This document shows, one piece after another, positions 21,993 through 62,538 of a DNA stretch of 64,000 bases. Made by a program: the position numbers and the translations under genes. Each line of letters begins with the position of its first letter. Position 1 is the stretch's first letter. The notes beneath the pieces were generated by a model that worked only from the letters and a program-made list of their open reading frames with translations, was not told the DNA's origin and ran no database searches. The stretch comes from Annona cherimola (taxonomy: Eukaryota > Streptophyta > Magnoliopsida > Magnoliales > Annonaceae). The DNA lies in the NCBI GenBank assembly GCA_030490835.1, contig CM059971.1, positions 38,922,012 to 38,986,011 on the forward strand, in the 5' to 3' direction.

Positions 21993-23464
21993 TGATAACT
22001 CTCGAAAATGCAAGTTATCATGGCCTATTTCCGACTAGTTTTGCATGTTAGTCCAAGAGAATGTGGTTAGTTTGCACCCATTTAGCTTAGTTGTCACTCA
22101 CTTTGTATTTTAGGAGCAATATGTAGTTTTTATGTATTTTTAGTTTAAAATAGGCATTTACAGTTCATTTATTTAGTTTTAGTGATTTTACAGGAAGGAT
22201 GGACAACTACAAGTGTGCGAGTGAGTCAAATGAAGAACCGAGCAGAGTGAAAAAGCAAGCAGGCTAGCAGATCTTCCAGCACCTCACACGGCAAAAAGCT
22301 TCCAGTGAGATGGCAACCAGGCACCCAGGCACCATCTTGGGGCGCCTAGGTGTCACTTCACTAGCATGCAGAGACATCTTGAAAAGTTTCTAAGTCAAGT
22401 AGCCTCCAGGGAGTTAGCACCCAAGCGCCACTGCGATCCGCACATGTGCGTTTCTGCACGTGTGTCATACGAACTAAGAGAATTAAATAGACACCTAGGG
22501 ATTCGTGCCAACAAAAGAGAGAGCTGATGGAGCAGCCACAAAGAGAAGAAAAAGGACTTCGTTTCCAGCGCATCCGAAGAAGAGATCCGATCTCATTGGT
22601 GGAAGCTCACGATATTCAGTTTTTCTTTTTCTCATTCTCTTTCCTTTTCTCTGTTTCTTGGAATACTTTCACTTTGTATGTAATGGGAGTTGATGCCATG
22701 TTCTTGAGCTAAACTTCCATAGATGGGAAGTTGAGATGAATTGGTATCTAACTATATTGTTTGGTTCTTTTCTGATTCAGAAATGAATATTTGATTTCTA
22801 TATGATTGTGCTGTGTCGATTTACCCTTATATATGTTGTCTAATGCTTTTTACAAGATTAGCTACCTTGTAAGATGATTTAATTGCAGAATTCATCCTTG
22901 GAAAAGGAAAATTCATGCCGGATCCATGTGTAGGGCATAGGTTTCTTCCTTTGTTAAGGGAAATTGTTTAATGGATAGGAATATACCATTAAACCCTATG
23001 TAGTCATGAACAAGTTATGTATCTATCAATTCCATTTCAATTAATTGCATGGGAATATAGCAATTGAGTGTTATGTAATTAGCTTTATATGTGTTGGAAG
23101 ATATATATAAAAATTATTGAACTGGGACTAGGAAATTCCTGCACAATCTAAAGAAAAGGAACCAATTCGATATAGTTTAGATTCAAGGATTCCTGACTAT
23201 CCCATCTGTCATCCCTATTTGATAATTCCTCTTTGGTATTCCAGTTATTCCGTTAAACTCTTCTCTATTTCTTTTACGTATTTTATATTTTCAACTTCAA
23301 TTATGAAATCCCTTTCTACTCACCGAAAGCAAATGAACTAATTAATAATCCTAGTTGGACCATATCCTCGTGGGAACGATACTCAACTCACTTTTTATTA
23401 CTTGATTGGCACGTATACTTGCATTAAAACGAGCATTTTAATTAGACATATATGCAGCTCGTCA
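21993..23464 (+). repeat. 5' LTR of the non-autonomous Athila-like element
   Basis: Near-identical to 29621-31123. Differences include point changes, a shorter AT run near 23105, and fewer GGCGCC modules near 22265-22430 (some appear deleted or mutated relative to the 3' LTR). Confidence 0.95.
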
Positions 23465-23630: not shown

Positions 23631-25408
23631 ATGCGCCGAGGCAGGGTTGGTAAGGACATTATTATACCATTTGATTCGGAACTAGAAAGAACTTATCTGA
23701 GAAGACGTCGCAAGAGAAAAGAAGCTAGGAATCAACAACATACAATGGAGCGCATTGGGAATCAGGATGAGAATATTCATGCAGATCAACAGGGAAACCA
23801 AAGGGTTGAGGTTCCAATTCATCCACTACAAGATGATTTGGACCAACCTATTTGGGATCTCATTGAGTTTGGGCAAAATGCAGTCCAAACTAGCATTCAA
23901 CTCCTCCTGTTGACACCAACAATTTTGAGATTAAACCTGTAGAATTCCAAATGCTCCAATCTATTGGGCAGTTTGGAGGATTGTCTTCTGAAGATCCACA
24001 CCGCCACCTGCGCAATTTCTTACAAATCATGAACACTTTCAAGCAGAATGGAGTCTCCGACGAAGCAATGAGGCTACAGACTTTTCCATTTTCATTGAGG
24101 GATAGAGCTTTGGAGTGGCTGGATTCTTTGCCACTGAACTCTATCAGCACATGGAACGACTTGGCTTAGAAGTTTCTTGAGAAATACTTTCCTCCTGCCA
24201 AGTTAGCCAAACTCGAAATGGATATACTCTCATTCGAATAACATGGAGAAGAGACTCTATCGGAGGCGTGGGATTGATTCAAAGACTTGCTCCGAAAATG
24301 CCCACATCATGGAATTCAGCCATGGGTGCAAATCCAAATATTTTATAATGGTCTCCAGGATTCCACCCGTCATATGGTGGATTCGTCATCGAATGGTTCC
24401 CTGCTAAGGAAGAGCTATAGAGAATTGTACGCCCTACTGGAGAATATAGCAGCCAATACCTATCAATTGCCATTTGACAGAAGCCAAAGTGGGGTTTACT
24501 CTAATTGGATGCGGTCTCATCTATAAAGGCCCACACCGACGCTTTATCAAGGCAAATATAGAATTTATCAAGGCCTGCTAATGTCAATGTTGTAGGGGCT
24601 TCCACATTGCTGTCGTCATCAGCAGAATATTGTACGTGGTGTGGAGAATTCGGTCACCCCAGTGATCAATGTGCCTCCATCTGGAGTCCATTAATTACGT
24701 GGGCAACTTCCAGAGAAATCCAGCAAATCCTTATACAAGCAACTATAATTAGGGCTGGAGGAATCATCCCAATTTCTCGTGGAATAACCATGCTAGGCTC
24801 AATTAGCCACCAAGATTCTCATAGAAGCCATCTCAACAATAGCCAGGCGAACCAGTTCGAATCAACCCACCTCCTCGAGAAGGAAAGAAATCCGATCTGA
24901 AAAATTTATTCATGCAATTTACGCAATCCCAGATCACGACAAACAGGAACTTGGAAGCGCAAATCGGCTAACTTGCTTCAGCTCTAAACAACCGACCTTA
25001 AGGTGCACTAACGAGTGACATTGAACAGAATCCGAAAGGAAAAGGAAAGGAGCAAGTGCAAGTAGTTACATCGTCATTCAGACAGAAGCTGAAACTATAG
25101 CCGCTAGTCCTCCTATTCATCAGTCACAAGAGGCAGAGGAACCAGACACAAATCAAAATTAGCCAGACGATGAAACAGCCACTAACCAAAGGCCTCCTCC
25201 TCCATTTCCTCAAAGACTTGCAAAGAACAAGAAGGAGGGCCAGTTCAAGAAATTCCTGGAGATATTAAAACAACTGCATATAAATATACCTCTCATCGAA
25301 GCCTTGGAGCAGATGCCAAGTTATTCCAAATTCATGAAAGATATTCTATCGAAGAAAAGATGATTCACAGAATTTGAAATGGTGGCGTTAACAGAGTAGA
25401 CTAGTGCC
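23631..25408 (+). pseudogene. gag: gag of the non-autonomous Athila-like element
   Basis: Begins at the ATG at 23631 (MRRGRVGKDIII). After a frameshift near 23900 the capsid core reads [81 protein letters not shown] and SYRELYALLENIA, all standard for Athila/Tat gag. A zinc knuckle CTWCGEFGHPSDQC is intact at about 24634-24675. Frameshifts near 24530 and 24690 and several stops follow. The tail before protease (25180-25400) has PPFPQRLAKNKKEGQFKKF and ALEQMPSYSKFMKDILSKK, the usual Athila gag-protease linker. Confidence 0.93.
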
Positions 25409-29620: not shown

Positions 29621-31123
29621 TGATAACTCGCGAAAATGCGAGTTATCATGGCCTATTTCCGACTAGTTTTGCATGTTAGTCTAAGAGAATGTGGTTAGTT
29701 TGCACCAATTTAGCTTAGTTGTCACTCACTTTGCATTTTAGGAGAAATATATAGTTTTTATGCATTTTTAGTATAAAAAAGACATTTATAGTTCATTTAT
29801 TTAGTTTTAGTGATTTTACAGGAAGGACGGACAACTATAACCGTACGAGTGAGTCAAATGAAGAACCGAGTAGAGTGAAGAAGCAAGCAGGCTGGCGCCT
29901 AGGCGCCAACCTACATGCCTTAGACAGATGTTCTAGCACCTCACACGGCAAAAACCTTCCAGTGAGATGGCGTCACCTAGGTGCCACTTCTCTAGCATGC
30001 GGAAACATCTCGAAAAGTTTTTAAGTCAAGCAGCCTCTAGGGAGTTGGCGCCCAGGCGCCGACTTGGGGCGCCCAGGCGCCATGGCGAATCCGCACATGT
30101 GCGTTTCTGCACGTGTGTCATACGAACTAAGAGAATTAAATAGACACCTAGGGATTCGTGCCAACAAAAGAGAGAGCCGACGAAGCACCTGCAAAGAGAA
30201 GAAAAAGGACTTCGTTTCCAGCGCATCCGAAGAAGAGATCCGATCTCATTGGTGGAAGCTCACGATATTCAGTTTTTCTTTTTCTCATTCTCTTTCCTTT
30301 TCTCTGTTTCTTGGAATACTTTCACTTTGTATGTAATGGGAGTTGATGCCATGTTCTTGAGCTAAACTTCCATAGATGGGAAGTTGAGATGAATTGGTAT
30401 CTAACTATATTGTTTGGTTCTTTTCTGATTCAGAAATGAATATTTGATTTCTATATGATTGTGCTGTGTCGATTTACCCTTATATATGTTGTCTAATGCT
30501 TTTTACAAGATTAGCTACCTTGTAAGATGATTTAATTGCAGAATTCATCCTTGGAAAAGGAAAATTCATGCCGGATCCATGTGTAGGGCATAGGTTTCTT
30601 CCTTTGTTAAGGGGAATTGTTTAATAGATAGGAATATACCGTTAAACCCTATGTAGTCATGAACAAGTTATGTATCTATCAATTCCATTTCAATTAATTG
30701 CTTGGGAACATAGCAATTGAGTGTTATGTAATTAACTTTATATGTGTTGGAAGATATATATATATATAAAGATTATTGAACTGGGACTAGGAAATTCCTG
30801 CACGATCTAAAGAAAATGAACCAATTCAATATGGTTTAGATTCAAGGATTCCCGACCATCCCATCTGTCATCCCCATTTGATAATTCCTCTTTGGTATTC
30901 CAATTATTCCGTTAAACTCTTCTCTATTTCTTTTACGTATTTTGTATTTTCAACTTCAATTATGAAATCCCTTTCTACTCACCGAAAGCAAATGAACTAA
31001 TTAATAATCCTAGTTGGGCCATATCCTGGTGGAAACAATACTCAACTCACTCTTTATTACTTGATCGGCACGTATACTTGCATTAAAATGAGCATTTTAA
31101 TTAGACATATATGCAACTCGTCA
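29621..31123 (+). repeat. 3' LTR of the non-autonomous Athila-like element
   Basis: 1503-bp copy of the 5' LTR. It keeps perfect GGCGCCTAGGCGCC (about 29894-29907) and CGCCCAGGCGCC modules (30049-30082) that are degraded or missing in the 5' copy. Confidence 0.95.
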
Positions 31124-38963: not shown

Positions 38964-39975
38964 TGTTGGAATTCAAGGCAAATTAAGCACAATCCATGTT
39001 TTGATGATTAACAACTCAATTTGAGAATTAATTAGGTACTAATGAGTTTACTAAAAGTTTTCAAAGGTGAAAAACTCAAGTTTCAAAAGATAGTAGACCA
39101 AGTCACAGTCCCAAGTTGACTCAGCCATCGACTTAGGTGAAGTCGATTCCCAAGTCGATTCCAGAATCGACTTCAAATGCAATAAATGTTCCAGAGTTGA
39201 AATTGGGACTCGGAGACAGGTGAAGTCATAGTCGAAGTCGACTCCACTTGCGACTTAGGTGAAGTTGTAGACCCAAGTCGACTCCAGATTGCAACTCAGG
39301 TACAGCCATACAGAAGACTTCGAATCCTCAGAGTCAAGTCGCATTCCCAAGTCGACTCCACAATGCAACTTAGGTGAAGTCGAACCTTCCACTCTCTTGC
39401 ATTTAAGTTGATCTACAACAAGTTTAAGTGAAGAATTGTGTTTCAAGCTGTTGAAAGCTGCGTTGCTGAATCTCCTACTCTCTCTACAAGTTCTTCTACG
39501 CGCTACAAGCTACCAACATGAATCTTTAAAGTGTAGTTATTTCTTTTGTTGATTATCTGTGTTTGCCACTTAGTTTGATATTGGAAATCGAAACCAAGTG
39601 AAGGCAAAGTAGTGTTGTGATTGGAGTGAGACTCGTCACCTACTTGTGTTGTATTTGTATAAGCCCCCTAGAGATGGAATCTAGAAGAGAGTTGTTGCTC
39701 TAGTTGTATTCAAATCCAATAGTGGAACCCAAGTCACAACGGGTGTGAGCTTGGAAGAGTGGAGTAGGAAAAGTTGTCCGAACCACTGTAAACCTTTGTC
39801 TCTTGGTGTGGCTTGAATATTTGTGTTTTATTACTTTATTTCTCTCCATATTTCTATTTGTTTCATTAAGGGGATTAACTTCAAAACGGGGGAAATTTCT
39901 GTTTAAGCAAAGAATTTTGAAATACCCAATTCACCCCTTCCCTCTTGAGTAATTGCCATAAACTCGGGACCAACA
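38964..39975 (+). mobile_element. Sirevirus 3' LTR, 1012 bp
   Basis: TGTTGGAATT to GGGACCAACA, with perfect 6-base terminal inversion (TGTTGG/CCAACA). Contains AAGTCGACT palindromes (39090-39400), a single TAAGCCCCCTAGAG unit near 39660 that is triplicated in the Sirevirus LTR at the right edge, and the conserved CAATTCACCCC..CCTCTTG block near its end. The right flank CCTCG (39976) is pararetroviral sequence, so this Sirevirus inserted into the virus copy; its 5' LTR is not in the window. Confidence 0.93.
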
Positions 39976-41557
39976 CCTCGGCTATCCCACAGAGTTATAA
40001 CTTTGTATTTTATGTAGATAAATTTATTCTTAATCTAGATAAATAAGATATTGAAATTATAAAATCAAAACAACTCCCTTATCAAATCTCATCCGGAGAA
40101 AAGGGAGAAAAAACTATTCAAGTGATCACCACTTTATTACGTAGAAAATATTTTCCTAAAGATGAATGGTTTATATCTTATGCCCCTAGAAAAGATATTA
40201 ATTACTATGAAAGAATCATTTGCAGACTTATTCCATTTCTATAGAACATGTGACTAAACCACCAAAGGATGACTGAATTTTATACTCAAAATTACATATT
40301 AAAAGAATTATTCATTTAGAACAATGGTTTTCTCATAACCCCAATACACTATTCTCTTTTCCTGAGCCAGTTACTATTGCCGAAAGATCTAAGTTTAGAC
40401 CAACTATGATGAAATATAATTATTGAGACTATCAGGAGGCTTAGTAAAAAAATATTTTTCAAACAGAATTATTTCTTTTCTCACTCATGGTGGGTTAGAT
40501 TTATCTTAGAAAATCCAAACCAACCAATTCTAAATTGGTTTCTAGATAAATTTTGGGACTTATGAGGTTTCAATCCAGATATTATACTAGAAGATTTATT
40601 AAAAGTTCTCCCTCTTGAGATCTTATCTGATAACGTATTTGCCTTAATAAAATTTATAATAGAAGAAAATATCCCTTGGATTATTAGATGGGACTTTTCA
40701 TTTTATACTAAGCCTACCACTCAACCCTATATAACTTATTCTTCATATACAAAATGGTGGCCAAAATTCTCCTATGAAGATGTTGTTGGCAAAGGAGATA
40801 TATAAGACAACAAAAGGAAAAATTCAAAGTCGAATCCATTTTACAAATGCTAGGTCCGAAGCCACCAAAGACGCCCTCAAGATAGCCCTATCTCTTATTA
40901 AAGAAGATTTTTCAAACTATCAGAACAAGAACAACAGGAAAAAGCCTTTGAACTATTATTCTACAGCCAAGTCGACTCAGACTAAATGGATGTCTCGTCA
41001 TAATCTCTCTCTAATTGACAAGACTCCATTATCAAAAAGAAAGGCGAATCTTACTATTCAAGCAACTTTATTACTATTTCCAGATTCTGAAAGACAAAAG
41101 AACTATTCAGATATGCTAAACCAGATGCTTTATTAAAGATGTCTCTCATCGGGCAGCTCAACTCCATCCATATCTAGGACACGACAGCTAATTGAGAAGA
41201 CAGCGGAATTATACTCGCATCAAGTCCGCTCCGGACCTCAACCATTGTAAAATCCGTCCTCTATAAATAAGTGTGCTGAGTATTGTAAGGGCATCGAAGA
41301 GTCTTCGAGTCTTCTAAGTCTTTAAGAGTGTTTCAATATTTGCAAGAGTGTTAGCGTTGAGTAGTTCTCGAGAGCTCTCTTCATCTCTTATAAGCTTGAT
41401 GTCAATCTCTATGTAAGTTTTCCCAGCTTTATGTCTAATGTTCCTTTCTCTTATAGTGAATGGTTAGAATATAATATTTTTAGATTATTATTATGGCATG
41501 TTGATTATTTGATAAATCATAACGAAATTCTGTTAAAATAAAAACCCAATTGCCAGA
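39976..41557 (+). repeat. Left arm of a 1.6-kb inverted repeat of pararetrovirus sequence
   Basis: Reverse complement of 41854-43452 throughout, with scattered substitutions and small indels (for example about 14 bases missing near 40784). It holds the pararetroviral region after RNase H, the promoter, and the first bases of the first ORF, in plus orientation. The coding part is full of stops. Its longest open stretch is 40774-41136, which belongs to the C-terminal region of the polyprotein in a shifted frame and is not a separate gene. Confidence 0.93.
41262..41269 (+). promoter_or_regulatory. Pararetroviral TATA box, left arm
   Basis: TATAAATA within CCTCTATAAATAAGTG, the expected core promoter of a caulimovirid pregenomic RNA. 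Here it points rightwards toward the spacer. Confidence 0.7.
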
Positions 41558-41853
41558 TTGAATAAATAATAAATTTGTTCTTCTATTTTGTTAATTACAA
41601 ATTGAACTATTTTTAATGCTTGAACAGTTTCTCTATAAGTAATATAATCATGAGGATGGCGAGTATAATCATATTGTGAAATAATATAACATAACAGAAT
41701 TTGTTCTTATTTTAAATCTTTTAATCTTTTACTCAAATGTCTAATCTGAAATGGGAAAAACATAATTATTTTTCATCAGAAATATATCCACATTCTAATT
41801 CTACACAGAATAAAGTTTTGCAGATAATAATATGTGTAATACGATTTGAGTGT
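41558..41853 (-). pseudogene. Spacer of the inverted repeat: start of the pararetrovirus first ORF
   Basis: Unique loop of 296 bp. On the minus strand it continues the coding-like sequence that starts with an ATG near 41980 in the right arm. It reads into YDYTRHPHDYITYRETVQAL and KIVQFVINKIEEQIYYLF. Two or three stops interrupt it. This is probably the N-terminal half of the small first ORF; the C-terminal end of such an ORF lies at 52203-52328. Confidence 0.6.
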
Positions 41854-43452
41854 TCTGGCAATTGGGTTTTTATTTTAAACAGAATTTCATTATGATTTAT
41901 CAAATAATCAACATGTCATAATAACAATCTAAAAATATTATATTCTAACCATTCATTATAAGAGAAAGGAACTTCAGACATAATAGCTGGGAAAACTTAC
42001 ATAGAGATTGACATCAAGCTTACAGGAGATAAAGAGAGCTCATGAGAACTACTCAACACTAACACTCTTGCAAATATTGAAATACTCTTAAAGACTTAGA
42101 AGGCTCGAAGACTCTTCGATGCCCTTACAATACTCAAGACACTTATTTATAGAGTACAGATTTTACAATGGTTGAAGTCCAAAGCGGACTTGAAGCGAGT
42201 ATAATTCCGCTGTCTTCTCAATTGGGCGTCGTGTCCTAGATATGGATGGAGTCGAGCGGGCCGATGAGAGACATCTTTAATAAAGCATCTACTTTAGCAT
42301 CTCTAAATAGTTCTTTTGTCCTTCAGAATCTAGAAATAGTATTAAAGTTGCTTGAATAGTAAGATTCACCTTTCTTTTTTATAATGGAGACTCGTCAATT
42401 GGAGAGAGATTGTGATGAGATATCCATTTGGTCTGAGTCAACTCGGCTGTAGAATAATTGCTCAAAGGCTTTTGCCTGCTGTTCTTGTTCTAATAAATTT
42501 GAAAAATCTTCTTTAATAAGAGATAGGACTATCTTCAGGGCGTCTTTGGTGGCTTCGGACCTAGCTGGCATTTGTAAAATGGATTCGACTTTGAATTTTT
42601 CCTTTTGTTGTCTTATATATCTCCTTTGCCAATGGCATCTATCAACAATATCTTCATAAGAGAATTTTGTCTACCATTTTGTATATGAAGAATAAGTTAT
42701 ATAGGGTTGAGTGGTGGCTTAGTATAAAATGAAAAGTCCCATTTAATAATCCAAGGGATATTTTCTTCTATTATAAATTTTATTAAGGCAAATATGTTAT
42801 CAGATAAGATCTCAAGAGGGAGAACTTTCAATAAATCTTTTGCTATAATATATGGGTTGAAACCCCATAAGTCCTAAAATTTATCTAGAAACCAATTTGG
42901 AATTGGTTGGTTTGGATTTTCTAAGATAAATCTAACCCACCATGAGTGAGAAAAGAAATAATTCTGTCTGAAAAATATTTTTTGCCAAGCCTCCTAATAG
43001 TCCCAATAATTATATTTCATCATAGTTGGTCTAAACTTAGATCTTTCGGCAATAGTAACTGGCTCAGGAAAAGAGAATAGTGTATTGGGGTTATGAGAAA
43101 ACCATTGTTCTAAAGGAATAATTCTTTTAATATGTAATTTTGAGTATAAAATTCAGTCATCCTTTGGTCGTTTAGTCACATGTTCTGTAGAAATGGAATA
43201 AGTTTATAAAAGGATTCTTTCATAATAATTAATATTTTTCCAGGGGCATAAGATATAAACCATTCATCTTTAGAAAAATATTTTGTACATAATAAAGTGG
43301 TGATCTCTTGAATAGTTTTTTCTCCCTTTTCTCCGGATGAGATTTGATAAGGGAGTTGTTTTGATTTTATAATTTCAATATCTTGTTTATCTAGATTAAG
43401 AATAAATTTATCTGCATAAAATACAAAGTTATAAGTCTGTGGGATAGCGAGG
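41854..43452 (-). repeat. Right arm of the inverted repeat: end of polyprotein and promoter
   Basis: Continuous with the minus-strand polyprotein at 43453 onward, so this is the original orientation. Going left it holds a C-terminal region after RNase H (43450-42400; conserved-looking FISYAPGK, FRPTMMKYNYWDY, HSWWVRFILENPNQP, all broken by stops), an intergenic region with the promoter, and the start of the first ORF near 41980. Confidence 0.93.
42144..42151 (-). promoter_or_regulatory. Pararetroviral TATA box, right arm
   Basis: Minus-strand TATAAATA in ACTCTATAAATAAGTG. It points leftwards, convergent with the left-arm box 880 bases away. Confidence 0.7.
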
Positions 43453-45698
43453 ATGATGTTGTATCCCTTGGGCTCTTGGGAGGAGCAGTTGGCTGTGACA
43501 ACTGAAGGCTTTCCCTACAAGAATTCTCTAGACAAATAATCAAGAAGTGGATTATTTTTTCCTTTAATATATTCTATTTGGAAGTAGAAGGGAGATAAAA
43601 TAGCTTGCCATCGAGCAAACATGTGTTTTGATGCAAAATGTTTGACATCCTTTTGAATAATATCTTTAGGTACTTGACAATCTATCCTTAATAAAAATTC
43701 TTTATTTAATAAATCTCCTTAAAATTTAACAATCAATAAAACAATAGATAGCATTTCCTTTTAATTGTTGGATATTTTTGCCTTGTCTCATTCAATAATC
43801 CAAAAGTATATCTAACCAAATATTCTTTATTTTGGTCTTTTTGTTTTAATATACCTCCATATCCTATATCAAATGCGTCAGTTTCAACAATTTTGAATAA
43901 ATATGGATTAGCTAAATGCAAACATGGCAAATATTTAACTTTATTTTAATATTTTGTACTGTTTTAGTATGCTCATTTGTCCACGGAGGTAGATTTTTCT
44001 TTAATCTTTGTAATAATAATTTTCAATCCTGGGCTACCTTTTCATAAAATTCTGCAATATAATTTAAACATCCTAAAAATCTTTGTAATTATTTTTTATC
44101 CTTTATTTCATCAGTGAATTTCTTGACAAAAATTATAGCTCTATTTATAGGCTGGATAGTATTGTTCTTTATATTAAATCCTAAAAAAGATATTTCTATT
44201 TGGCATAATTTTATCTTTCTTTCAGATAAAACTAGCCTGTTACGATGAATTATATTTTTGAAAGTTTTTAAATATTTCCAATGTTGTTGAATAGAGTTTG
44301 AATATAGCAGTATATCATCAATATGAACTCCAAATAAGGATTAAATGCATCATTCACTATATTTTGAAATTCAAATGGTGCATTTTTTAATCCAAAGGGC
44401 ATAACATTCCATTCATAATGTCCAAAGGGTATAGTAAACATTGTTTTATATTTATCTTCTTCTGCTATTTGAATTTGCCAATATCCTGACTTTAAATCAA
44501 ATTTTAAAAATATTTTTGCTTTTATAATCCTTTGTAACAAATCTTTTTTATTTGGAAGAGGATATCTTATCTATTTGATAACTTTGTTTAGCGGTTTATA
44601 ATTTATTACTAGGCACAGAGCTCCTCTTTCTATTTCTGCTGCATTATTGACATAAAAGGCAGAGCAACTTCATGGCAACTTACTTGGTCTTATTAATTTT
44701 TTATCTAATAAAGTCTGAATTTTTTATTTGTAATATTTTAATAATTCTAAATTCATTTGTCTAGGCCTTGCTTTAGTTGGGATTTTATCTTTATTAAATT
44801 CTTCTATATATGGTAGTTTGACTATATCTTTCTTTCTATTCCAAAATGCATTAGGAAGTTCAGAACATACTTCTATGGTTAATTTTTTACAAAAAGCTTC
44901 TATAGATATTTTAAGTGGCCCTTGTATTTATCGTTTAATATGCTTAATAGTATTTTGTTCTTTTAAATAACATAAAAAATTCTTTTTATATAATAGAGTT
45001 TCTTTTAATTCTGCTAATAGTAACACTTCTGGAGGTTTTATGAATGAAAATATAATCTCTCTATTTTGAATTGTGGTACGTATTCCTTCATTTGTTACAG
45101 TGAAAAGTTTAATCATTTGCAAAAATGGGGTTCCTAGAATAATTTTTTGTTGCATATTTTTAATTAATATAAATGGGGTTTGAAAACATATGTTTTTATT
45201 ACAAATATGGGCTTTCGATAATTTATATTTAACAATCATATATGTGCCATCAACTGTAGCTATAGACGAGTTTGTCGTTACAAAATATTTATGAGGTATT
45301 ATTCCTTCTTTATATAGTTTAAATCTGCACCCGAATCTATTAAGGCTATTAATTCTATGGAAAAATCTTCAGGATAATCTATAATTTTTAAAGTAATTTT
45401 TTAATACCATTTTTTGGATATAATTTTCTGAGTTTGTTGATATAAAGTATGGAGTGATGATTCTAGATGGTCTAAGTTCTTTTCTATTTAGATGTTGCTC
45501 AAATTCTTCTTGGGTTTGTTCTTCATGTGTCTCATTTTCAATTAAGTTCTGTAATTCTAAAATTTGAATTCTATTTTTTAGTTCAGAGATTTTTGCTTTC
45601 ATTTTCTTTATTTCTTGATATAGTTCAGGAATAATTTGTGGCTTAGGTGCTCCTTTTAAATATTACTCTTGACATTTTATAATGTTGAATAATGAGGT
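43453..45698 (-). pseudogene. Pararetrovirus polyprotein: protease, RT and RNase H (Caulimoviridae)
   Basis: Replicative part of an endogenous pararetrovirus. From right to left: a coiled-coil-like charged segment (45369-45650, ISELKNRIQILELQNLIEN), an aspartic protease with DSGAD at 45323-45337 and IILGTPFLQ near 45140, then RT with KARPRQMN (44770), RGALCLVINYKPLNKV (44600), FDLKSGYWQIQI (44470) and MPFGLKNAPFEFQ (44380). The IDD catalytic residues are present near 44310, but a frameshift lies just before them. RNase H begins ETDAFDIGYGGIL (about 43870) and continues with frameshifts to about 43500. Stops and shifts make it inactive. The order protease-RT-RNase H with no integrase, plus the primer site at 52181, marks Caulimoviridae; I cannot fix the genus. 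Interrupted on the right by solo LTR E. Confidence 0.9.
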
Positions 45699-48600
45699 TG
45701 TGATACCCCAGCCCGAGCGTCACAATATTAGCCTTACTCCGGGACTATTATTGATTGGTAAACGTGATCAAGATTGTTGCCCTGTCATACTGCAAGATTT
45801 ATTGGATATTTATCCACTTAACCTTGACTCCTTAGGAGTTTATATCATTTAACATATTTCAATTTCCATCAAGTGCCCTTTTAGGCCATTATAACATCTG
45901 AATATATACATGTTATATCATAAAACTCATAATCAATCATAATACAATAATTCATACATTAGCATTTGTCCATAAAAAAATTTCTCCATTTAGAGCCATA
46001 TATCATGGAATATTTTTCATACAACATAAAAACATTCACATAAGTTCATCATACAACCATTCATTCACAAATCATATACAGGCATTCTTAAAAAAATTCA
46101 TCAATCTTAAAAGCTCAACCTGGGCTCCTTGCCTTGTGCTTCCTTTCACCTGTCTTTGTGTTTGGAAAACAAAATGTGAGTCGAAACTCAATAAGCAAGA
46201 TATAAGGTTTTAGGCAACATTTTACAGGTAATACATTTTCATTTAAAACATCTTGGAAAGAAAACATTATACTCTTTCGAGGGTATGTCATAAAAACATG
46301 CTCCTTGTACCTGTCATGGGTATATCATAAATAATGCAATGCATCATTTTTTAAACATGACATCATAGGATGGAAGTTAGCCAAGCAACTATCCGTCTCC
46401 AACGTCTCTCCCAATCCAGGGAGGCGCCGCCGGCGTGAAGCCTATCTTAGCGACTTGGCCGCACCAAAGGGGGACAATCGGTCCGCTTACACCTTTGAGG
46501 TGGACCTCATGCTTTGCGCACATGAACCTTTCATAAACATCATTTTTGACATGCTAGCATGATTTTTCATTCATAAATTCATGTTTCATCACTTATCATG
46601 AGAAATTGAGAAAGCATTGTACAAATCATTTGACATATTGGAAATATCATTTCAATACACATTGAGATAAAGGAATGGTCATCCTCAAACACCTTAGAAA
46701 GAATTTAAATTAATCATTTGCTAAACCATTCAAATAGTTAGAACATCATTAGCAAACATTTTATCATATTTTGATAAAATAAGAAGCATTTAGAAAATCA
46801 TTTGCTTACCTATTCCGCCTTCGCTTTCCGAATCAACTTTCTCTTTGCCTTTGCCTATACATAAGAATGACATTGTATTCATAAAACTTTCATTTGCTGG
46901 CATACACTTAGTTATCCGACCCATATTTCATTTCGTATACAACCAACTTGAATTCCAAGTCGGGTACGCATTCATAACACATACTTGTGCATCATATTCC
47001 ATATCATGTTCTAAACCCACATGTAGGTTATACATTCATACACAAAATAATCATTCATTTATCATCATATGGAGGTTCATACCTCCCATTTATCATTTTT
47101 CATCCATTTTTCACATTTCATACGTCGGTGCTCATTTTAAGCATATATTCGACATCTTAAGCTTCATATATTAATCTTAAATTTTTATATTATCATTAAT
47201 CATCAAAACAGCAACATAATCATGTATTTCACCATTATTTCATGCATTTCTGCATTTTAGCAAATCACATAAGTCATTCATCACTTGTCCATACATATCC
47301 TTCCATATACACTCATCTTATGACACATAACTTATAATTCAGCATGATTAAACCCTTTAATTAACATCTAATTTAGGGTTTATTTCTGGACTTTTAATCC
47401 ATTTATCATTGGGTTCCGAAACAGCAACTTTGGGACCCATTTTTCATCCTTTCAACACATCTTTTGATACTTAAATCAAAACAGATTTTTAATCCATTAA
47501 TTACAGCAATTATTTATGATTTTCTTAACCCAAATTTAGAGTAATATTACATATTTAAAATCCATAACTCGTTTGCTCCCAAAATAGAAACTTCCACACA
47601 TGTTTTGAGTACCTTTTGCACCTCTCTTTGGACATACCTTTGCATACCCTAAAAAATCAGATTTAGGGCATACCTTCCCAACATTTTTTGGCCATCCAAA
47701 GTACCCTAATCCTAGGGTATTTTACCCTCTAAAACATCCATAATTTAATTATTTACAAATCAGCAATATGTTATGCATGTAGGGTACCTATTTTAGTCCC
47801 ATTTTGGACGTCCCTTCATGCTCATAAAATCAGATTTAGGGCCATCTCTTCCACCCTATGTAGGACGTCCCAAGGGTCCTTAATTTAGGGTACTTTTCCC
47901 TATGATTCATCCATATATCATTTAGGTTAATCGTTGCATCATATTTAACATAAAAAGTGAAAAATCGGGTCAAATATGAAACCCTAAGTTCCATCCTTTC
48001 TAAAATCTTTAGCTTATGACCAAATCAACATATATAATTCATAAGAATATGAATCATGTCCTAATCATGATACTTAAATAAAACAGCAACTTAGCTTAGG
48101 GTTTTAAGAAAATTCAAGATAGGTTCTTTGCCTAAAATCAACCCTAGCTTCCAATTTCTCCCTCTTGAACCCTTGATTTCATACATATCATTCAATCCTC
48201 ATTCAATACCCAAATCAAGGGTATCATAAATCATCCTTGAAGGGTTCTTTATGAATCATATTCATGACCCATAATTAGAGGTAGAAAACTTGGGTTTAAA
48301 TGATTCAAAACTCAAAGTATACTTACTTGAATCCAAACTTTCCTCGCTTGAATCCCTTTCTTTCCTCCCCTTTTTCCTTCTCTCTTCTCTTTTTCTCCTC
48401 TTTTTCTCCTCCTTCCTTGCTGGTCTTGGGCACGTTCAAGGGCTACTCCCTTGAGATTTTTCTCCCCTTTGAATTTTACCCAAATGGACGTCCCTACCTT
48501 GCTCCATGTATATATATTTTTTGATATTTTTTAACCCCCTTGTGGGACCCATTTGCCACATCATGGATAGAGTAATTTATGTCCCACTTATCCATTTATG

Positions 48601-49658
48601 AGTTGGCACACTCACATCTAAGTAAAATGGCTAATTATCATATTTTTAAAATTCTAAATCTTAGCTCATAAGTGAGCTACTTAGCTCCTCACCCTTGGAC
48701 GTTCACATGGCTTCCCCTTGTGGCTTTGCTTGGCCACCAATTCAACATCCATTTATGTGCATTTACATCCCCCTCTCATTTAGCTTAGCTAGGTTTTGAC
48801 TTGAGTATATAAAAAATCAAAAAAATCCAAGTGCATGATCCCTTGGACGTCCACCATATGCCACCTCCATGGTCTCCTTGAGGCTAGCTCATTAGCCCCT
48901 TAACTCAAGCATTAATGCATGAGATTTATCATGAACTTTGTGATTTACAATAATTCACAAAAGCAAGTTAAAATATCCTTGGTTGACACCTCATATGGGG
49001 CATTAACTCAAGTCATTAAACCACTAGCTTTTTCATAAATGCTTGTTGCAAAAGCCAAAGTCACTTTGTCCTTTTGTGATTAAGCATATTTTCATGATAA
49101 TTAGCTTAATCCAACCCTTCCATAATATTCACCATATAGTTGTATCCGTTCATCTCAAATTTCGTCTCAAAACGACTTTTCTATCTTAAGTTATAATCAT
49201 TTGAAATTAACTTTTGGATTTGGGATGAAAATAAATAATTATCATCATAATCTCATCACAATTTCATTAATCTAATCCCTCCATAATATTGGGCACAAAA
49301 TTATGTGCTTACCTTTCAAATTTCATCTCCATCCGCCGTATAGGCGTCAAGTTATGAATTTTCTAGTATTTTCCAACTTAATTCCATAATTATCATTCTA
49401 ATTTCCATTAATCAAATCATGATAATTAAAATAATTATTCATGACACATTAGCATTTTCCAATCCTTACTAAGCCACTTTAGTCATATTGACTCACATTG
49501 GGCTACGACGATTAATCTTAATACCATTCTTAATCATAACCCTAATTGCAAAATATCATTAAATCATAAAATCATTTATAAATCAATCAAATCATACATT
49601 AGTCATAATTACAGGTCAAACGCATCTATATGAGCAGTATTTGGGTCTAGGTATTACA
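45699..49658 (-). mobile_element. Solo LTR E, 3960 bp, inside the pararetrovirus
   Basis: Ends are TGTGATACCCC at 45699 and GGTATTACA at 49658. Flanks are GAGGT (45694-45698) and AAGGC (49659-49663), which differ by two transitions, so the duplication is probable rather than proven. The viral polyprotein resumes beyond it. On the minus strand it has two 38-base paired motifs (49318-49355 and 49157-49194). It shares the 'cgtgagtcgaaactca' and 'gggggacaatcggtccgc' blocks with B, C, F and G. No retrotransposon genes. Confidence 0.88.
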
Positions 49659-49663
49659 AAGGC

Positions 49664-50700
49664 AAACTCTTTCATGGATGATACTTCTTCGAGAGAGATT
49701 TTTGATTGAAAATATTTAAACATTTGCTAAGAAGATCAGCTCGTTGTTGTGGATCTGAAACTTGGTTTATTAAGTCTAATAGAGTTTTGTCTATAGAGTT
49801 TAACATATTTATAGAATAATAATCTTAGTCAAAGGAAGTTTGATATTCATTGGGAGAATAAGAGCAGTTACATAGATGTTCCGATTCAGAGTCTGAAGAA
49901 TTTTAGTTTTGAATATAATTTAATCAGTCTTCATCTGTACTGTTAGTTTCGTCATTGGAAGTGGTAGCTAATTCTTTAAGTTTTTTAGTAATAACTTCTA
50001 GGCTTAAATCTCGTTTTGCTAAAAATTCTTTTACTTGTCTTTTATAACATTTAGAGGCATAGTGTCCTGTTTTTTCACATTTATAACATTTAATATCCTT
50101 TTTAGGTTTAAATTTTTTTTGTTTTTTTATGATATTTCTCATAAGTCTTACGTGAAGGTTTATTTGAATATGTGGGATGGGTATTATCTTGATAAGTATT
50201 TCTTTTATAAGACTTAGATTTAGGAATCTTGATTTTCTCATAAGATTCTTTAAAAATGGTAATTTCTCTATACCATACTGAGAGCAAAATTGAGAGAAGT
50301 CTTGAGATTTTAAGAAATGAGTTTCTTCTATTTTCTTTTGGTGACATAATTTTGTTCCTACAGATCTTACTTTTGAAAATAGAGTTCCCCAAGTATAATT
50401 TTCACATACTAGTTTTCCTCCGTTCTCTTGTTTTATTAACATTTTTACTTTATTTTCTATAACTGAAGGCAATCCTTGTAAAAAAATTTCTTTATATATA
50501 GGTTTGGATAAATCGTCTAATAATTGTACATCGGTTAGAAATACATCTTTATACCATTTAAAATTATATATTTGTTTACATCTTAATTTTAATAATCTTT
50601 CTCTAATAATTGATTGATAATCTTCTACTCTTCCTAGAAATTGATTAAATTCATTTATAGTTATTTTTCTTTCTTCTTCAAATTGTTGATCCACTTAGGA
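49664..50700 (-). pseudogene. Pararetrovirus coat-protein region with zinc knuckle
   Basis: An open stretch of 256 codons (50694-49924), followed in the same frame, after two stops, by an acidic Ser-rich tail (NSSDSESEH) and LIDQ-type sequence up to LTR E. It contains a lysine-rich segment and an intact zinc knuckle CYKCEKTGHYASKC (about 50082-50041), the nucleic-acid-binding signature of caulimovirid coat proteins. The upstream half (NEFNQFLGRVEDYQSIIRER, IFLQGLPSVIENKVK) fits a capsid core. The frame is open upstream apart from stops near 50698 and 50739, so this is part of the polyprotein and no true start is implied. Confidence 0.88.
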
Positions 50701-52057
50701 TGGTCTTTGATAATAATTTTTTCGTATTTTTCATATACATTCTTTGTAATAAGTTAACTGGATCTTCTCTTGATATACTTGGATTTTTTCAAAGAGTGTT
50801 TATATATACTTCTTTTCTTTATATTTTTGGACTATTTCTTCAAGTTTCTTTTTTAAATTAATCATATTTGGAGGAGAATATAATGTAGGAGTTTCAGTTC
50901 TTTGATCAGGTAATTCTTGTACAATGCTTAAAGGTTTTTTGAAAAATGATAAATTTGGCTTAACTGGTTTTTGTCCTTTAATAATTTCTGGTTCTATTAT
51001 CTTTTCTTTTCCTTTTCTTTTTTCTAATTGTTTTTCTATATTTATTAATTTATAATTTGAAAAATTACTTTGTTCAATTAATTGTGATAGATTTTTTAAG
51101 TGTACTGGTAGTTCTTTATAACTATATTTTTTATATGGTTCTTGAATTATAAGTCCATCTATTTCTTTGTTTGATCTATTAAGTCTTCTTTCAGGTTGGA
51201 TATCTGTTATGGGTGGAGTGGATGATGGTGAAGGGTTGGATGATTTAGAGGTTTTAAAGTGGATGTTTGTTATAACATATTTATAGAAAATAATACTTAG
51301 TTATCATACCATTGAAAGAAATGAATATTTTGTTCTATATGTATACAATATAAAAACCATTTCTTTATAATTATCTTTAATTCTGTTGAATTATATATTT
51401 TTTAAATTCATTCTCTTTTTTCTTTATTTTTTACAGACTTATATTCTTCTAATAATAAAGTTTTATTAAATTCGAATGTTGATTTTTCAATAATTTGATT
51501 AAGCTGAAAATTTGATTATGAGGGTTCAATCTCTGGCTTTGTAATATTTTGATCATTATTTAATGAAAATCTACTTGTGGAAGGAATGGAGGACATAGAT
51601 CTTCTTTCTAAGGTTGGTGATAAAGATTTTATGGTGATTTTAGGTGTTATAGGTTTTGAAATACTGAAAGAATTTCTTTTAAGAGATGGTTCAAAGTTAA
51701 GAATTATATTATTAGGATTTTCGGTAATTGCTTCAATTTTTTCTGAATTTTGTTCTAGAATTTCTAGTGATAAATCATTTTCTGATTTCCATTCTGTGGG
51801 CAAATTTACTTCTGACCATAAAATTCTTTTTGGTTCTATCTTTTTGTGGATAGGATTAGTAGCAAATGTTCCAATTTTATAAATTTTTTTATATGTACTT
51901 TGGATATTTTCCAATTTTGTATAGATTTTTCAATATTTTCATAGGCTCCTTCAGTCATATTTTGAATTTCATCTAACCTAACAGAATGAATTTCTGTATC
52001 AGTGGAAGAAAAAGATGATGATGTAGAAAACATTCTCTTGAGATTACTCATTTTCAC
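50701..52057 (-). pseudogene. Pararetrovirus polyprotein N-terminal region
   Basis: Starts MKMSNLKRMFSTSSSFSS at 52057 and shifts frame near 51880 to SSTYK-like sequence: NIQSTYKKIYKIGTFATN, RILWSEVNLPTEWKSEN, then a Ser/Pro-rich stretch to a stop at 51516. 51515-51303 is poorly open. A third open part (about 51300-50820) begins in HFKTSKSSNPSPSSTPP, has a charged region (KQLEKRKGKEKIIEPE) and LSIVQELPDQRTETPTLY, and runs on in the coat-protein frame after stops. By position this should cover movement-protein-like or coat N-terminal sequence, but I cannot identify the movement domain with confidence. Confidence 0.65.
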
Positions 52058-52180: not shown

Positions 52181-52198
52181 AACTTGGCTCTAATACCA
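52181..52198 (-). other. Pararetrovirus primer binding site, tRNA-Met type
   Basis: Minus-strand TGGTATTAGAGCCAAGTT matches the complement of the initiator tRNA-Met 3' end (TGGTATCAGAGCCAGGTT-like) with two transitions. It lies about 125 bases upstream of the polyprotein ATG at 52057 and just after a short ORF's stop. Confidence 0.85.
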
Positions 52199-52202
52199 AT
52201 TC

Positions 52203-52328
52203 TCAACCTAGGAGAAATTTGATTCTTTTTTGCAATGTTGTTATAGCTTCTATGTCAAAACTCTTAGATCTTTCTAACCAAGTTGCTAGCCTAAGAGCAA
52301 ATGAACTTCCTTCTATTCTCAATTCTTA
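52203..52328 (-). pseudogene. End of the pararetrovirus first ORF
   Basis: About 40 open codons reading SSFALRLATWLERSKSF, then DIEAITTLQKRIKFLLG and a TGA at 52203-52205, five bases before the primer site. Similarity to viral sequence ends at the tandem duplication at 52331, so this marks the right border of the integrated virus. Assignment to the same ORF as 41558-41980 is inferred from genome order. Confidence 0.55.
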
Positions 52329-52330
52329 AT

Positions 52331-52720
52331 ATAAGAAAAGCTTTGAGAAAATGAAGTAACATTAATTGTGAAATATTTAATTAATTTATTTTTAATTTTA
52401 TAAAAATTATCTAAATTGTCATAAAATTAGCCTCTTTACATTAAGGTTTTTTGAAAAAGTGAGGTAATTTTTTCGAACAAAAAATTATAAACAGTGAAAT
52501 TTTAATAAAGATCAAATAGAAAAATATAAGAAAAGCTTTGAGAAAATGCGATAACATTCATTGTGAAATATATAATTAACTTATTTTTAATTTTATAAAA
52601 ATTATTTAAATTGTCATAAAATTAGCCTTTTTACTTTAAGGTTTTCTGAAAAAGTGAGGTAATTTTTTCAAACAAAAAATTATAAATAGTGAAATTGTAA
52701 TAAAGATCAATTTTGCAAAA
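52331..52720. repeat. 195-bp tandem duplication
   Basis: Two copies, 52331-52525 and 52526-about 52715, starting ATAAGAAAAGCTTTGAG and sharing TTGTCATAAAATTAGCC, differing at scattered sites. It starts right beside the viral border. Confidence 0.9.
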
Positions 52721-54775: not shown

Positions 54776-55082
54776 TGGAAATTGATTTCATGCACTAGGG
54801 TGCACTTAGCTTCAGTGCACCCGGGTGCATTTAACCTATTTTTTATATTTATTTTAAAAAAAAATTATAAGATTGTTAGTCTAAATGTATTTAACATGTG
54901 TATAAATTTTTATAATTTTTGAAGATTTTTAGATATTTTTTATTTTTTAAAATCAGTGGCATTTTCAGTAATTTAAAGATAATGATGTAGTAAAAAATTT
55001 TCAATAAAATATTAAGAAAATAGATATTTGCACCCGAGTGCACCGAAGCTAAGTGCACCTGGGTGCATGAAATCAGCTTCCA
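54776..55082. mobile_element. 307-bp MITE with long GTGCAC-rich terminal inverted repeats
   Basis: Begins TGGAAATTGATTTCATGCAC and ends in the reverse complement of a near match. The inverted repeats are about 58 bases (54776-54833 and 55025-55082). Each arm holds several GTGCACC words. The interior is AT-rich. Flanks TCATTTG (54769-54775) and TCATTTA (55083-55089) suggest a 7-8 bp target duplication. No coding capacity. Superfamily not certain. Confidence 0.8.
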
Positions 55083-57840: not shown

Positions 57841-58837
57841 GGTACATCAAGTGTGATTAAATGACTTAAGAGTATTAATGAGAATCTAGAGTAATAGTAT
57901 TATGTTAGTATGATGATGACTTAATATAACACTCTTCTACAATACCCATATTTCTCATCGGGTCATATGTTTCATTATCTTATGTGAAGAGTGTTCAAAA
58001 AAATTATTAAATGAAATCCAAGGGCACGTTTGTTCTAATACATGTGTGGGTGGGATGGGTTAATGTCGGAGCTCGTTTTACAAAATAAATTATTATTCCA
58101 CTCAATAACCCTAAATTTCTAACTTTATCCTTATATTCTAATAAATTTTCTAATAAACTACCCTTTAACAAAACTATTTATTACAATTGTACCTTTAGCA
58201 TTTAAAATTTTTCTTTTTCACTTTCCACCTCATCCCATAATTCCGCCAAATTTCAACCTACCAAACATCACCCAATATTCTATGTGAATGAGTAGGAGAT
58301 ATAATATATCATGATATGTTCAATAAACATTGATTGTTTAGTTAATATTTTTTTGATAAAATCGTTTAGTTAATATTTGATTATAGAGCTTATTATATCC
58401 TATATGGTATGAACTTATATAAAACTATTTAAGGGCATGTTCATAGTTAGATTTTAGAATGGGATGTTATTGAGATTAAATCTTTTAATGACATTGAAAT
58501 GAAATCTTCCATTTCTTAATATACATTTACCCAATCTTAATACACTTTTTCCTGTTTCTAACACATTTTCATATCTAATTCTCATCTCATCATCATGCCA
58601 TCATCATTTTTTCTCAATTCTGAACAACTCATTTTATCTTATTTTATCCCAAGAAATGATAAGTTTATTTCAAAGTCCTTCTCTTCCAATTATATAAGAG
58701 TGGAAACGAAATAGGGAGTGCTCTCTCTTTTTCTCTCTAAATATTCTCTAAGGCATTATTTTTCTCTTGAGATTTTGTAATGTGGGTATGCGGTGGGAGA
58801 CTCTGGTAGCCATCCCACAATAAGGAGAATAGGCTTG
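57841..58837. other. Unassigned AT-rich sequence
   Basis: No domain, repeat or structural signal recognised. Confidence 0.5.
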
Positions 58838-61513
58838 TGTAGCGCCCTAGCCCGAGTGTCACATATTTAGTCTTACTCCAAGACCGTTATTGATTGGTAA
58901 ACGTGATCAGGATTGTTACGTTGTCACACGGTGGGTTTTATAGGATATTTATCCATTTAATCTTTACTCTTTAAGAGTTAATATTATCATACACATTTCC
59001 TTTTTCATTATTTTGCCCATCTAGGCCACTATAAGATCATAATAAACACATATTATATCATGAAAATTATATTCATTCATCATATAATAAAAGCATACCT
59101 TAACATTTGACTATAAAATTTTTCCATCCATAGATCACATATCGTTGCGTGAATCTCATACAATCATTAAGGCAGTTATATAAATCATTATACATCATTC
59201 ATCCATAAAATTATACACAGGCATTCATTATAATTTTCCTTCTTCGTCGTTTAACCTGTGCTCCACTGCCACGTCCATCCTTTCACCTGTTTTAGGGTTT
59301 AGAAAACAAAACGTGAGTCGAAACTCAAGAAGCAAGTTGTATGTTTTTCGGGCAATTCATTTTGCAGGCAACATTTTCATTTAAAACATCTTGGAAAGCA
59401 ACATTATACCCACTCATGGGTATATCATGAAAATATAATCCTTATACCCATCACAGGTACATCATAAATAATGCAATGCATTATCTTAAAACATGAACAT
59501 CATAGGATGGAAGCTAGCTGGCAACCATCCGCCTCCGTCTTCTCCCATCCCAGGGAGGGCACCGCTGGCCTTGGCCTATTTTAGCGACTCAGTCACACCA
59601 AAAGGGGACAATCGGTCCACTTATACCTTTGAAGTGGACCTAATGATTTGTGCACATGACTTATCATAAACATGATCTTTAACATGCTAGCATGATTTTT
59701 CATGCATAAACTCTTAAAGCATCATTTTTCATCAACATTTGTAAAGCATAGCATAAATCATTTATCACAATTGAAAATAGCATTTCAACACATATTGAAC
59801 TAAAGGAATGACCATCCTTAAACAACTTAGAAATAATTTCAACAATCATTTGCTAAATAATTCAAAACATTTAGAATATCATTAGCAAACATTTTATCAT
59901 ACTTTTGTGAAAACAAAAATCATTTAGAAAGTTGTTTGCTTACCTGTGTCATGTTAGCTTTCCATGTCAACTTTTTCTTTGTCTTTGCCTATGCACATAA
60001 GAATGACATCACAATCATATAATTCTCATTTGCTTGCATACAACTTAGTTTTCCAACTCATCAATCATTAACATACATAACCCACTTGGATTTCAAGTAG
60101 GGTATCATACATAGCACGTACTTGTGCATCATACCATTCATTCATTCCATACCATATTCTATACCCATATGTAGGGTAAACATTCATGCATATCATAATC
60201 ATTCATTAATCATCATACGGAGGTTCATTACCTCCCATTCATAATTTTTCACTTTTCATACATCGGTACTCACTTTAGGCACATACTTGACATCTTAGAC
60301 CTCATATATTAATCTCAAAATTTGAGATTAGGATTATTTATCAAAACAGTAATATAATCATGCATTTCATCATATATTCATGCATTTTTGCATTTTAACA
60401 AATCATATAAGCATTTATCATTTATCCATACGTATCATTTCATATATACCCATCTTACAACACATATGTTATGTGTTTCTTAAAATTATTCAAAACAGTA
60501 CCTTGCCTCCTAATTTAGCATGATTAAACTCCTTAATTATCACATCATTTAGGATATATTTATGGAATTTTAATCCATTAATCATAAGATTCCAAAACAG
60601 CAATTTTGGGACCCCTTTTTCACACTTTCAACATCCCTTTTGACACTTAAATCTTAACGAATTTTTAATTCATAAATTTCAGCAATTAATCATGCTTTTC
60701 TTAACCCAAATTTAGGATATTATCATATATTTAAAGTTCATAATTTGGTTGCTTACAAAACAGCAACTTCACATGCATGTAGCGTACCCTTGTTGCACCC
60801 CTCTTGGATGTCCCTATGTGTGCCCCTAAAAATCAAATTTAGGAAAAACCTTCCCATCCTATTTTGGAAGTCCAAAGTACCATCAATTTAGGGTACTTTA
60901 CCCTTTAAATCATCCAAAAATCATTTAGGCTAATTCATGCATCATACATATCATAAAAGGGTGAAAATCGGGTCAAGTTGTTAACCCTAAGTTCCATTCT
61001 TTTTAGGGTTCTTGTCTTATACCCAAATCAACATATATAATTTATAAAAGCATGAATCATAATCTAATCATGTTAACTAATTAAAACAGCAACTTTAAAA
61101 GAGGAATTAAGAAAATTCCATCTAGGTTATTAACCCATACTCATCTCTAACATCCAACTTAACCTCTTTAAACCATTGAATTCATTCATACCATTCAATC
61201 CTCATTCAATATCCTAATTAAGGGCATCATAAATCATCCTTTAAGGGTTCACTATGAATCATATTCATGACCTATAATTATAGGTAGGAAACTTGGAATT
61301 AAATGATTCAAAAACTCAATTTATACTTACTTGAATCTAAGAAAACTTGAATCCAAAATTTCCCAACTTGATTTTCCTCCTTTCTTCCTTCCTTTTCTCC
61401 TCTTTTTCCTTCTCTTTTCCCTTCTTCCTCTTCCCTCCTTGGACGTGCTTAGGGCTGCCCCTTAGGAGATTTTTCTCCTCCTTGAAATTTTTCCAAAAGT
61501 GGACCCCATGTAG
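58838..61513 (-). mobile_element. LTR F, 3' half visible, interrupted by LTR G
   Basis: Begins TGTAGCGCCC (end of the LTR on the sense strand). It is collinear with LTR E from 45699 to about 48510 (shared blocks: GATTGGTAAACGTGATCA, AAAACGTGAGTCGAAACTCA, TAGCATGATTTTTCAT). At 61513 it is cut by LTR G. The remainder would lie right of the window. Confidence 0.85.
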
Positions 61514-62094
61514 TGTGGCGCCCCCAACCTGAGCGTCACATCCTGAAACTTACTCTGAGATCGTTATTAACTGGTAAACGTGATCAGGATTGTTGCCCTG
61601 TCACACGTCGGGCTTATTGGATATTTATCCATTTATCCATTACTCTTTCGGAATTAGTTTCATGCTATTTTCCATCAAGTGTCCATTTAGTGCATTTTTG
61701 TCCTGATACACACATATTATTTCATAGATAATCATAGTTATTCATAACGTGCTCAACATCCCTTAAACACTTGTCCGTGAAGCATACGACATAACAATAC
61801 TCGTATATGAACATCAAGATAGCAATATCAAGTCATTTTACAACCCTTCACAGTAAGTGACACATAAAAGTAATCATAAAGTTTTACATTCTTCAATGTC
61901 CAATTTATACTCCTTTGTCACCTTCGTTCTTTCACCTGTCTATGGGTTTGGAAAACAAAACGTGAGTCGAAACTCAATAAGCAAGCTAAATATTTTTTAG
62001 GCAATTCATTTTACAAGCAAAATTTTTCATTTAAAACATCATGAAAAACAATATTATACCCCCTCGAGGGTATATCATGAAAACATGTTCCTTA
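61514..62094 (-). mobile_element. LTR G, partial, nested in LTR F
   Basis: Starts TGTGGCGCCC and repeats the first 600 bases of the E/F pattern, including AAAACGTGAGTCGAAACTCA near 61957. It stops at 62094 where a Sirevirus LTR begins. Confidence 0.85.
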
Positions 62095-62538
62095 TGTTGG
62101 AAACATGTGAAAAATAAGTCAAGTTTATGTTTTGATGATTAACAAACCAATTTGAGTAAGTATAAAAATGAAGAATATGAAGCATGGAAAGTTAAGTCGA
62201 TTTCCAAGTTGACTCAGGCATCGACTTAGACCAAGTCGATCCCCAAGTCGACTCCAGTAGCGACTTCAGCTCGTCATTTTCGTCCAGAGTTGAAAACGGG
62301 AAACCAAGCTACTGAAGTCGCAAACGAAGTCGACTCCGCATGCGACTTGGGTGAAGTCGCAGACCAAGTCGACTCCAGCTTCGACTCCAGTGCGGAACTT
62401 GCAGATCAAGATGATTCAATGATAAATTCAAGTGAAGATGAAGGCCAAGACAACTCAAACACTCAAATGAAGTCCAGAGCAAGCAAAGTTGCATATTTTC
62501 ATAGAGAATTGAGATCATACATTTGGACCTCTCTTATG
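62095..62538 (+). mobile_element. Sirevirus LTR H1, first 444 bp
   Basis: TGTTGGAAAC start, TTTTGATGATTAACAAACCA block shared with the LTR at 38964, then AAGTCGACT hairpin modules. Interrupted at 62539 by a second LTR start. Left flank CCTTA is the expected target duplication. Confidence 0.8.

Follow-up and report, generated by a model that had tools for sequence, protein, structure and literature searches.

Inverted viral copies and facing promoters

The window, by which we mean the whole 64-kb stretch of DNA that was analysed, holds two inverted copies of an element that, by its sequence, is an endogenous caulimovirid. The left arm of the inverted repeat (39976-41557, plus strand) represents the 3' part of a truncated copy, made up of the ORF2-like region that follows RNase H, the promoter and the start of the leader. 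The right arm (41854-43452, minus strand) comprises the same viral region and is contiguous with the leader and with RNase H and reverse transcriptase sequence. A sequence-only reading of this DNA had described the arms as reverse complements, and this is borne out by self-blastn, which aligns 41854-43452 with 41557-39976 on the minus strand at 92.826% identity over 1603 columns with 10 gap openings. Pairwise alignment likewise gives 1578 ungapped columns, of which 93 are mismatches (67 transitions and 26 transversions), together with 10 gaps and a K2P distance of 0.062. Length and identity together exclude an inverted repeat by chance. Identity along the arm-versus-arm alignment ranges from 0.86 to 0.99 between bins, and gene conversion was looked at by these bins alone.

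Each arm carries the TATA box TATAAATA. The left copy's box, at 41262-41269 on the plus strand, points right; the right copy's, at 42144-42151 on the minus strand (TATTTATA on the plus strand), points left. Both face the loop at 41558-41853, which confirms the convergent arrangement reported earlier. A genome search with the promoter piece found the virus in at least 43 places (a lower bound, from 115 candidates of which 40 were scored), which cluster into 37 loci at 5 kb. Of these 37, 20 were fetched and 19 entered the tree and the counts, with L026 left out for its short match; L029-L032 were scanned for self-inverted repeats only. When the 19 copies are aligned with the two arms, TATAAATA is identical in 20 of the 21 rows. 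It is the sole eight-base word of the left arm, among 357 with letters in all 21 rows, to be identical in 20 or more. The earlier assignment of the region to a pararetrovirus promoter is supported.

The right-hand provirus and its affinities

The right copy is a broken provirus of nearly genome length, lying on the minus strand from 52328 to 41561, and all of its pieces described here are on that strand. At its right end (52328-52331) viral similarity stops, with host tandem repeat beyond. Near this end is TGGTATTAGAGC (52187-52198), which resembles a tRNA-Met primer-binding site with 1 mismatch to the motif; matches with up to 2 mismatches number 2 in the 64-kb window against a chance mean of 3.6, and the argument for the site is its place and strand, not its rarity. 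At 51861-51863, comparison with other fetched loci reveals about 440-490 bp of extra sequence in L014, L018, L022, L026, L027 and L048, and about 110 bp in L028. The extra stretch in L014 and L018 falls within a movement-protein ORF (PF01107, E 7.6e-14 and 1.2e-20, respectively). The corresponding stretch is largely missing from the window copy, and its movement-protein gene is thus truncated at this point.

A coat protein piece with a zinc knuckle follows at 49924-50694 (PF22909, E 6.1e-06; PF00098, E 0.00039), both scores being just at the Pfam cut-offs (27 bits against 27 and 20.8 against 20.8). The provirus is then split by an insertion at 45699-49658 with LTR-like ends (TG...CA), to which sequence at 58837-62095 is related. 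Beyond it lie an open piece where the aspartic protease is expected (44928 to about 45368), which has no Pfam match with E up to 1, a reverse transcriptase piece (44268-44570; PF00078, E 2.9e-18) and RNase H-like pieces (43515-43945), with PF17919/PF17917 on 43733-43942 and no family above its cut-off on 43515-43715. Some 1.36 kb separate the end of the RNase H region (43515) from the TATA box, and none of the four open pieces scanned in this interval matches a Pfam family above its cut-off. This ORF2-like region is itself broken. The one piece of it that was searched has no relative in the protein database, nor has the coat protein piece (0 matches each). The genes of the right copy are broken by stops, deletion and insertion.

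Searched against solved structures, the reverse transcriptase piece of a related copy (L012) matches best to 8r0s, an 'Enzymatic polyprotein' which we take to be the cauliflower mosaic virus enzyme (E 3.4e-43), with the Ty3 entry 7q5b at 1.9e-30. The same piece has 207 relatives at E <= 0.001, and the few named ones, among 120 matches listed, come from plants. In a search of IMG/VR contigs with the reverse transcriptase piece, seven stretches fit the pattern and none was confirmed.

By gene order the element appears most like a florendovirus, a comparison made with the published description of florendoviruses. As in the florendovirus elements of PMC4241990, movement protein, coat protein with zinc knuckle, reverse transcriptase and RNase H occur in that order. 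RNase H is followed, as in those elements, by an open region for which no relatives were found, a promoter and a candidate tRNA-Met-like site. Florendoviruses feature a second ORF of 45-58 kDa past RNase H that has no known relatives, and an aspartic protease between coat protein and reverse transcriptase; unlike them, the window copy has no protease detected by Pfam.

The host tandem repeat right at the provirus end consists of two 188-bp units (52328-52710) and also occurs on C3 near 55.21 Mb. An empty site was sought via this right-hand flank and not found, the C3 relatives near 55.21 Mb being the repeat.

The loop and the single join

The interval between the arms had been called a 296-bp unique loop. 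Unique it is within the window, but the same sequence lies beside the arm at 16 of the 20 fetched loci, no more than 35 bp away and in the same relative orientation as in the window's right copy; no match was found in the remaining loci, L019, L020, L026 and L028. In seven loci (L018, L010, L011, L013, L014, L017 and L022), the sequence continues about 80 bp past the loop into that of the other end of the window provirus (52327 and below). Given this shared place and orientation, and the seven loci that run on to the provirus's other end, the loop (41561-41853, minus strand) is leader sequence belonging to the right-hand copy. The left arm stops at 41557 and the viral match starts at 41561, which leaves a three-base filler (41558-41560) at the join. 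When the genome was searched with a 161-base query across this point, one of the 40 scored hits spanned it, namely the window itself, and the other 39 matched one side only. With the loop assigned to the right copy's leader, a filler of three bases and the window alone spanning the join among the scored hits, the structure is a single tail-to-tail junction, offset in length, rather than a pair of arms that flank a spacer.

A natural viral DNA end or poly(A) site as the point where the two arms stop was also considered and rejected, as the right copy runs past that point as leader.

Outer edges

The left arm abuts the 1012-bp LTR of a high-copy element (38964-39975, plus strand; TGTTGG...CCAACA). 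With a 200-base query across 39975/39976, the best 40 of 1861 candidates were scored. Thirty-two of these match the left side only, stopping at base 98-111, seven match only virus and one spans the edge. As this edge is an LTR end in the scored genome hits, the left copy is either cut by the LTR element or joined to it. At the thresholds of the self-comparison, no direct repeat of this LTR that could be the element's 5' LTR was found upstream within the window. A comparable edge occurs at L024:4300-5101, where about 3 bases lie between the end of another viral copy and the terminus of an LTR. This LTR shares 77% identity with the one next to the window's left arm, and the edge may reflect a chance insertion into virus or a chimeric integration.

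Inverted copies at other loci

Both orientations of the promoter piece occur within 5 kb at three of the 37 loci found, and all three pairs face inward. Looser clustering gives both orientations at 4 of 36 loci (10 kb) and 5 of 33 (30 kb), the added pairs facing outward. The promoter query favours tail-to-tail pairs, since other inverted pairs place their promoters further apart. One TATA box is degraded in each of the inward-facing loci on C4 and C5, and of the three only the window's keeps both.

On C4, L009 (G000 C4:50628000-50634000) is an older pair of copies of the same virus, fused tail to tail within the leader; its palindrome spans about 1.18 kb at 72% identity, and further viral matches lie within 20 kb. 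On C5, L011 (G000 C5:31758000-31765000) holds rearranged viral pieces in both orientations. On C7, L019 and L020 (G000 C7:72166315-, 72190744+) carry the same virus region in opposite orientation, 24 kb apart, with tree tips of 0.0013 and 0. Such near absence of divergence would fit an inverted duplication that is recent, or else an artefact of assembly.

Divergence and age of the arms

In the tree of 21 rows (the 19 other copies and the two arms), the arms group as sisters (100/97), and their tips measure 0.033 and 0.035. They share 93.8% identity, and none of the 19 other copies exceeds 88.8% identity to either arm. Over two ORF2-like stretches, the 35 differences between the arms fall 13/13/9 on codon positions 1/2/3. 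When either arm is set against 18 other copies, third positions account for 38-57% of the differences (comparisons required 20 differences, which left out L010 with 7). Fisher p values for this codon contrast run from 0.0026 to 0.22 and exceed 0.05 in 11 of 36 comparisons, which are not independent of one another. With three stretches the arm differences number 19/16/12 over the codon positions (p 0.46 for evenness). Where stops were seen they belong to one arm: in two stretches with an open right arm, 4 of 173 codons are stops in the left arm only. The arm differences thus lack the third-codon excess seen against the 18 other copies and look like decay after integration, in a test of modest size.

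Of the 98 left-right differences, 50 could not be polarised, and among the polarised changes of C-to-T type 2 of 14 lie in CG. Since, in addition, the CpG observed/expected ratios of the arms (0.56 and 0.47) are near the window's 0.55, there is no methylation signature.

Substitution rates in plants range from 7e-9 to 1.3e-8 per site per year, and in woody plants from 1.5e-9 to 2.5e-9. At a K2P of 0.062, the former rates would put the age of the pair at roughly 2.4 to 4.4 million years, and the slower woody-plant rates at roughly 12 to 21 million years.

Predicted transcripts

With RNA assumed to start about 30 nt after the TATA box, the left-hand transcript would begin near 41292, about 265 nt before the inner end of the arm. 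A stem started from the promoter is therefore about 265 bp long, not 1.6 kb, and the earlier proposal that either promoter would yield a long hairpin is not supported in that form; a stem of the full 1.6 kb would require transcription to begin outside the arms. In the predicted RNA 41292-42121 the last 266 arm bases form the stem, and the fold has an energy of -449 kcal/mol, versus a mean of -156 for 20 shuffles. Identical runs of at least 22 bases cover 136 of the 266 arm bases that follow the presumed start; for the whole arm the figure is 946 of 1582. AATAAA occurs on the path of the left-hand transcript at 41537, 41561, 41568 and 41809, all before the complementary arm, and once, at 41874, on that of the right-hand transcript. 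Self-comparison and predicted fold agree that inverted viral copies able to form a hairpin are present. The proposed hairpin or dsRNA mechanism would be possible on this model, with a shorter reach than was first suggested.

Relation to known systems

The sequence-only reading had also held that inverted endogenous pararetroviruses can feed small RNAs, for which PMC10377300 provides precedent: inverted, hairpin-prone endogenous caulimovirids giving 22-nt RNAs in tomato and soybean. In tomato hybrids, DCL2-dependent 22-nt RNAs derived from EPRVs are described in PMC9124383. Closest are the tomato TSAs (Valli et al., as reviewed in PMC10377300), which are likewise inverted endogenous caulimovirid copies able to give hairpin RNA. 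For the TSAs, however, both 22-nt small RNAs and silencing activity were measured, whereas the window locus is known from its sequence alone. Endogenous banana streak viruses, according to the same review, also combine inverted, rearranged viral fragments at one locus; some of their copies are replication-competent, whereas the genes of the window locus are broken. The inverted arrangement of an endogenous caulimovirid is thus of an already known kind. For convergent viral promoters in such an element, we found no description in titles and abstract openings, which does not imply absence from print.

Origin and functional state

We consider it quite probable that two near-identical viral copies were captured jointly, decayed neutrally and are now silent repeat DNA. 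A nearly genome-length right copy, on the minus strand, is opened in its leader; this leader end is joined tail to tail, through the three-base filler, to the tail of a shorter plus-strand copy. Most likely, end joining at a single chromosome break took up both near-identical viral DNA molecules together, after which both copies would have decayed neutrally. By position, an LTR element came to abut the outer edge of the left copy, and another LTR-like insertion split the right copy. The most likely functional state is silent repeat DNA, this silence being an assumption. Were the copies transcribed after all, RNAs initiated at the viral promoters would either fold into stems of about 265 bp or overlap one another as sense and antisense strands. 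They might then be processed through the 22-nt DCL2 pathway that other inverted endogenous caulimovirids are reported to feed. The inverted arrangement looks like integration debris, given inward-facing copies at two others of the 37 loci and arms that drift with no sign of selection. The locus clearly illustrates how an inverted pair of endogenous viruses can come from one join, selection not being needed. If small RNAs were found, hairpin RNA could be distinguished from the dsRNA of convergent transcripts by the variants specific to each arm and by the leader that separates the promoters.

A distinctly less probable origin is an inverted duplication, in which integration was accompanied or followed by copying of the right copy into the left arm, for instance by template switching in break repair. 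The arms are sisters and were seemingly near-identical when joined, as such a duplication would have them. Yet the left copy brings no host sequence from the surroundings of the right copy, and tandem arrays and multicopy rearrangements are frequent for such elements (PMC10377300). This counter-evidence is weak, and joint capture is hard to tell apart here from an inverted duplication at or soon after integration, as both leave the same trace.

Less likely still is that the locus is active, with its convergent viral promoters used, the RNA diced and resistance to related viruses inherited. Both TATA boxes are intact here, one being degraded at each of the two other convergent loci, the predicted fold is far below the shuffled mean, identical runs of at least 22 bases are extensive in the arms, and the tomato TSAs offer a precedent (PMC10377300). 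Against this, a promoter-started stem would reach only about 265 bp, left-hand transcripts meet four AATAAA signals ahead of the right arm, the arms drift without codon bias, and the same virus has inverted pieces at other loci too. More improbable again is a self-contained silencing cassette powered by the virus, in which facing promoters with intact TATA boxes give leader-overlapping RNAs and hairpins and, with no host promoter, confer heritable siRNA immunity.

Two independent insertions of different viruses in one place are very improbable: copies do lie close together at other loci, but the arms resemble each other (93.8%) well beyond any of the 19 other copies (88.8% at most) and differ without third-codon excess. 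Long inverted repeats pose a risk in assembly, but a hairpin chimera is rejected, as it would give near-identical arms, whereas here 93 of 1578 sites differ, with 10 gaps, and the right copy runs on into leader past the end of the left copy.

Other features of the window

Two direct repeats, 21993-23464 and 29621-31123, are 90% identical and resemble the paired LTRs of a retrotransposon that contains gag. Matches to the plant snoRNA snoR71 occur at 603-709 (plus strand, 61.6 bits) and at 24209-24315 (minus strand, 43.2 bits), the latter falling inside this retrotransposon-like region. A 307-bp sequence at 54776-55082 is its own reverse complement at 69% identity, like a fold-back transposon.
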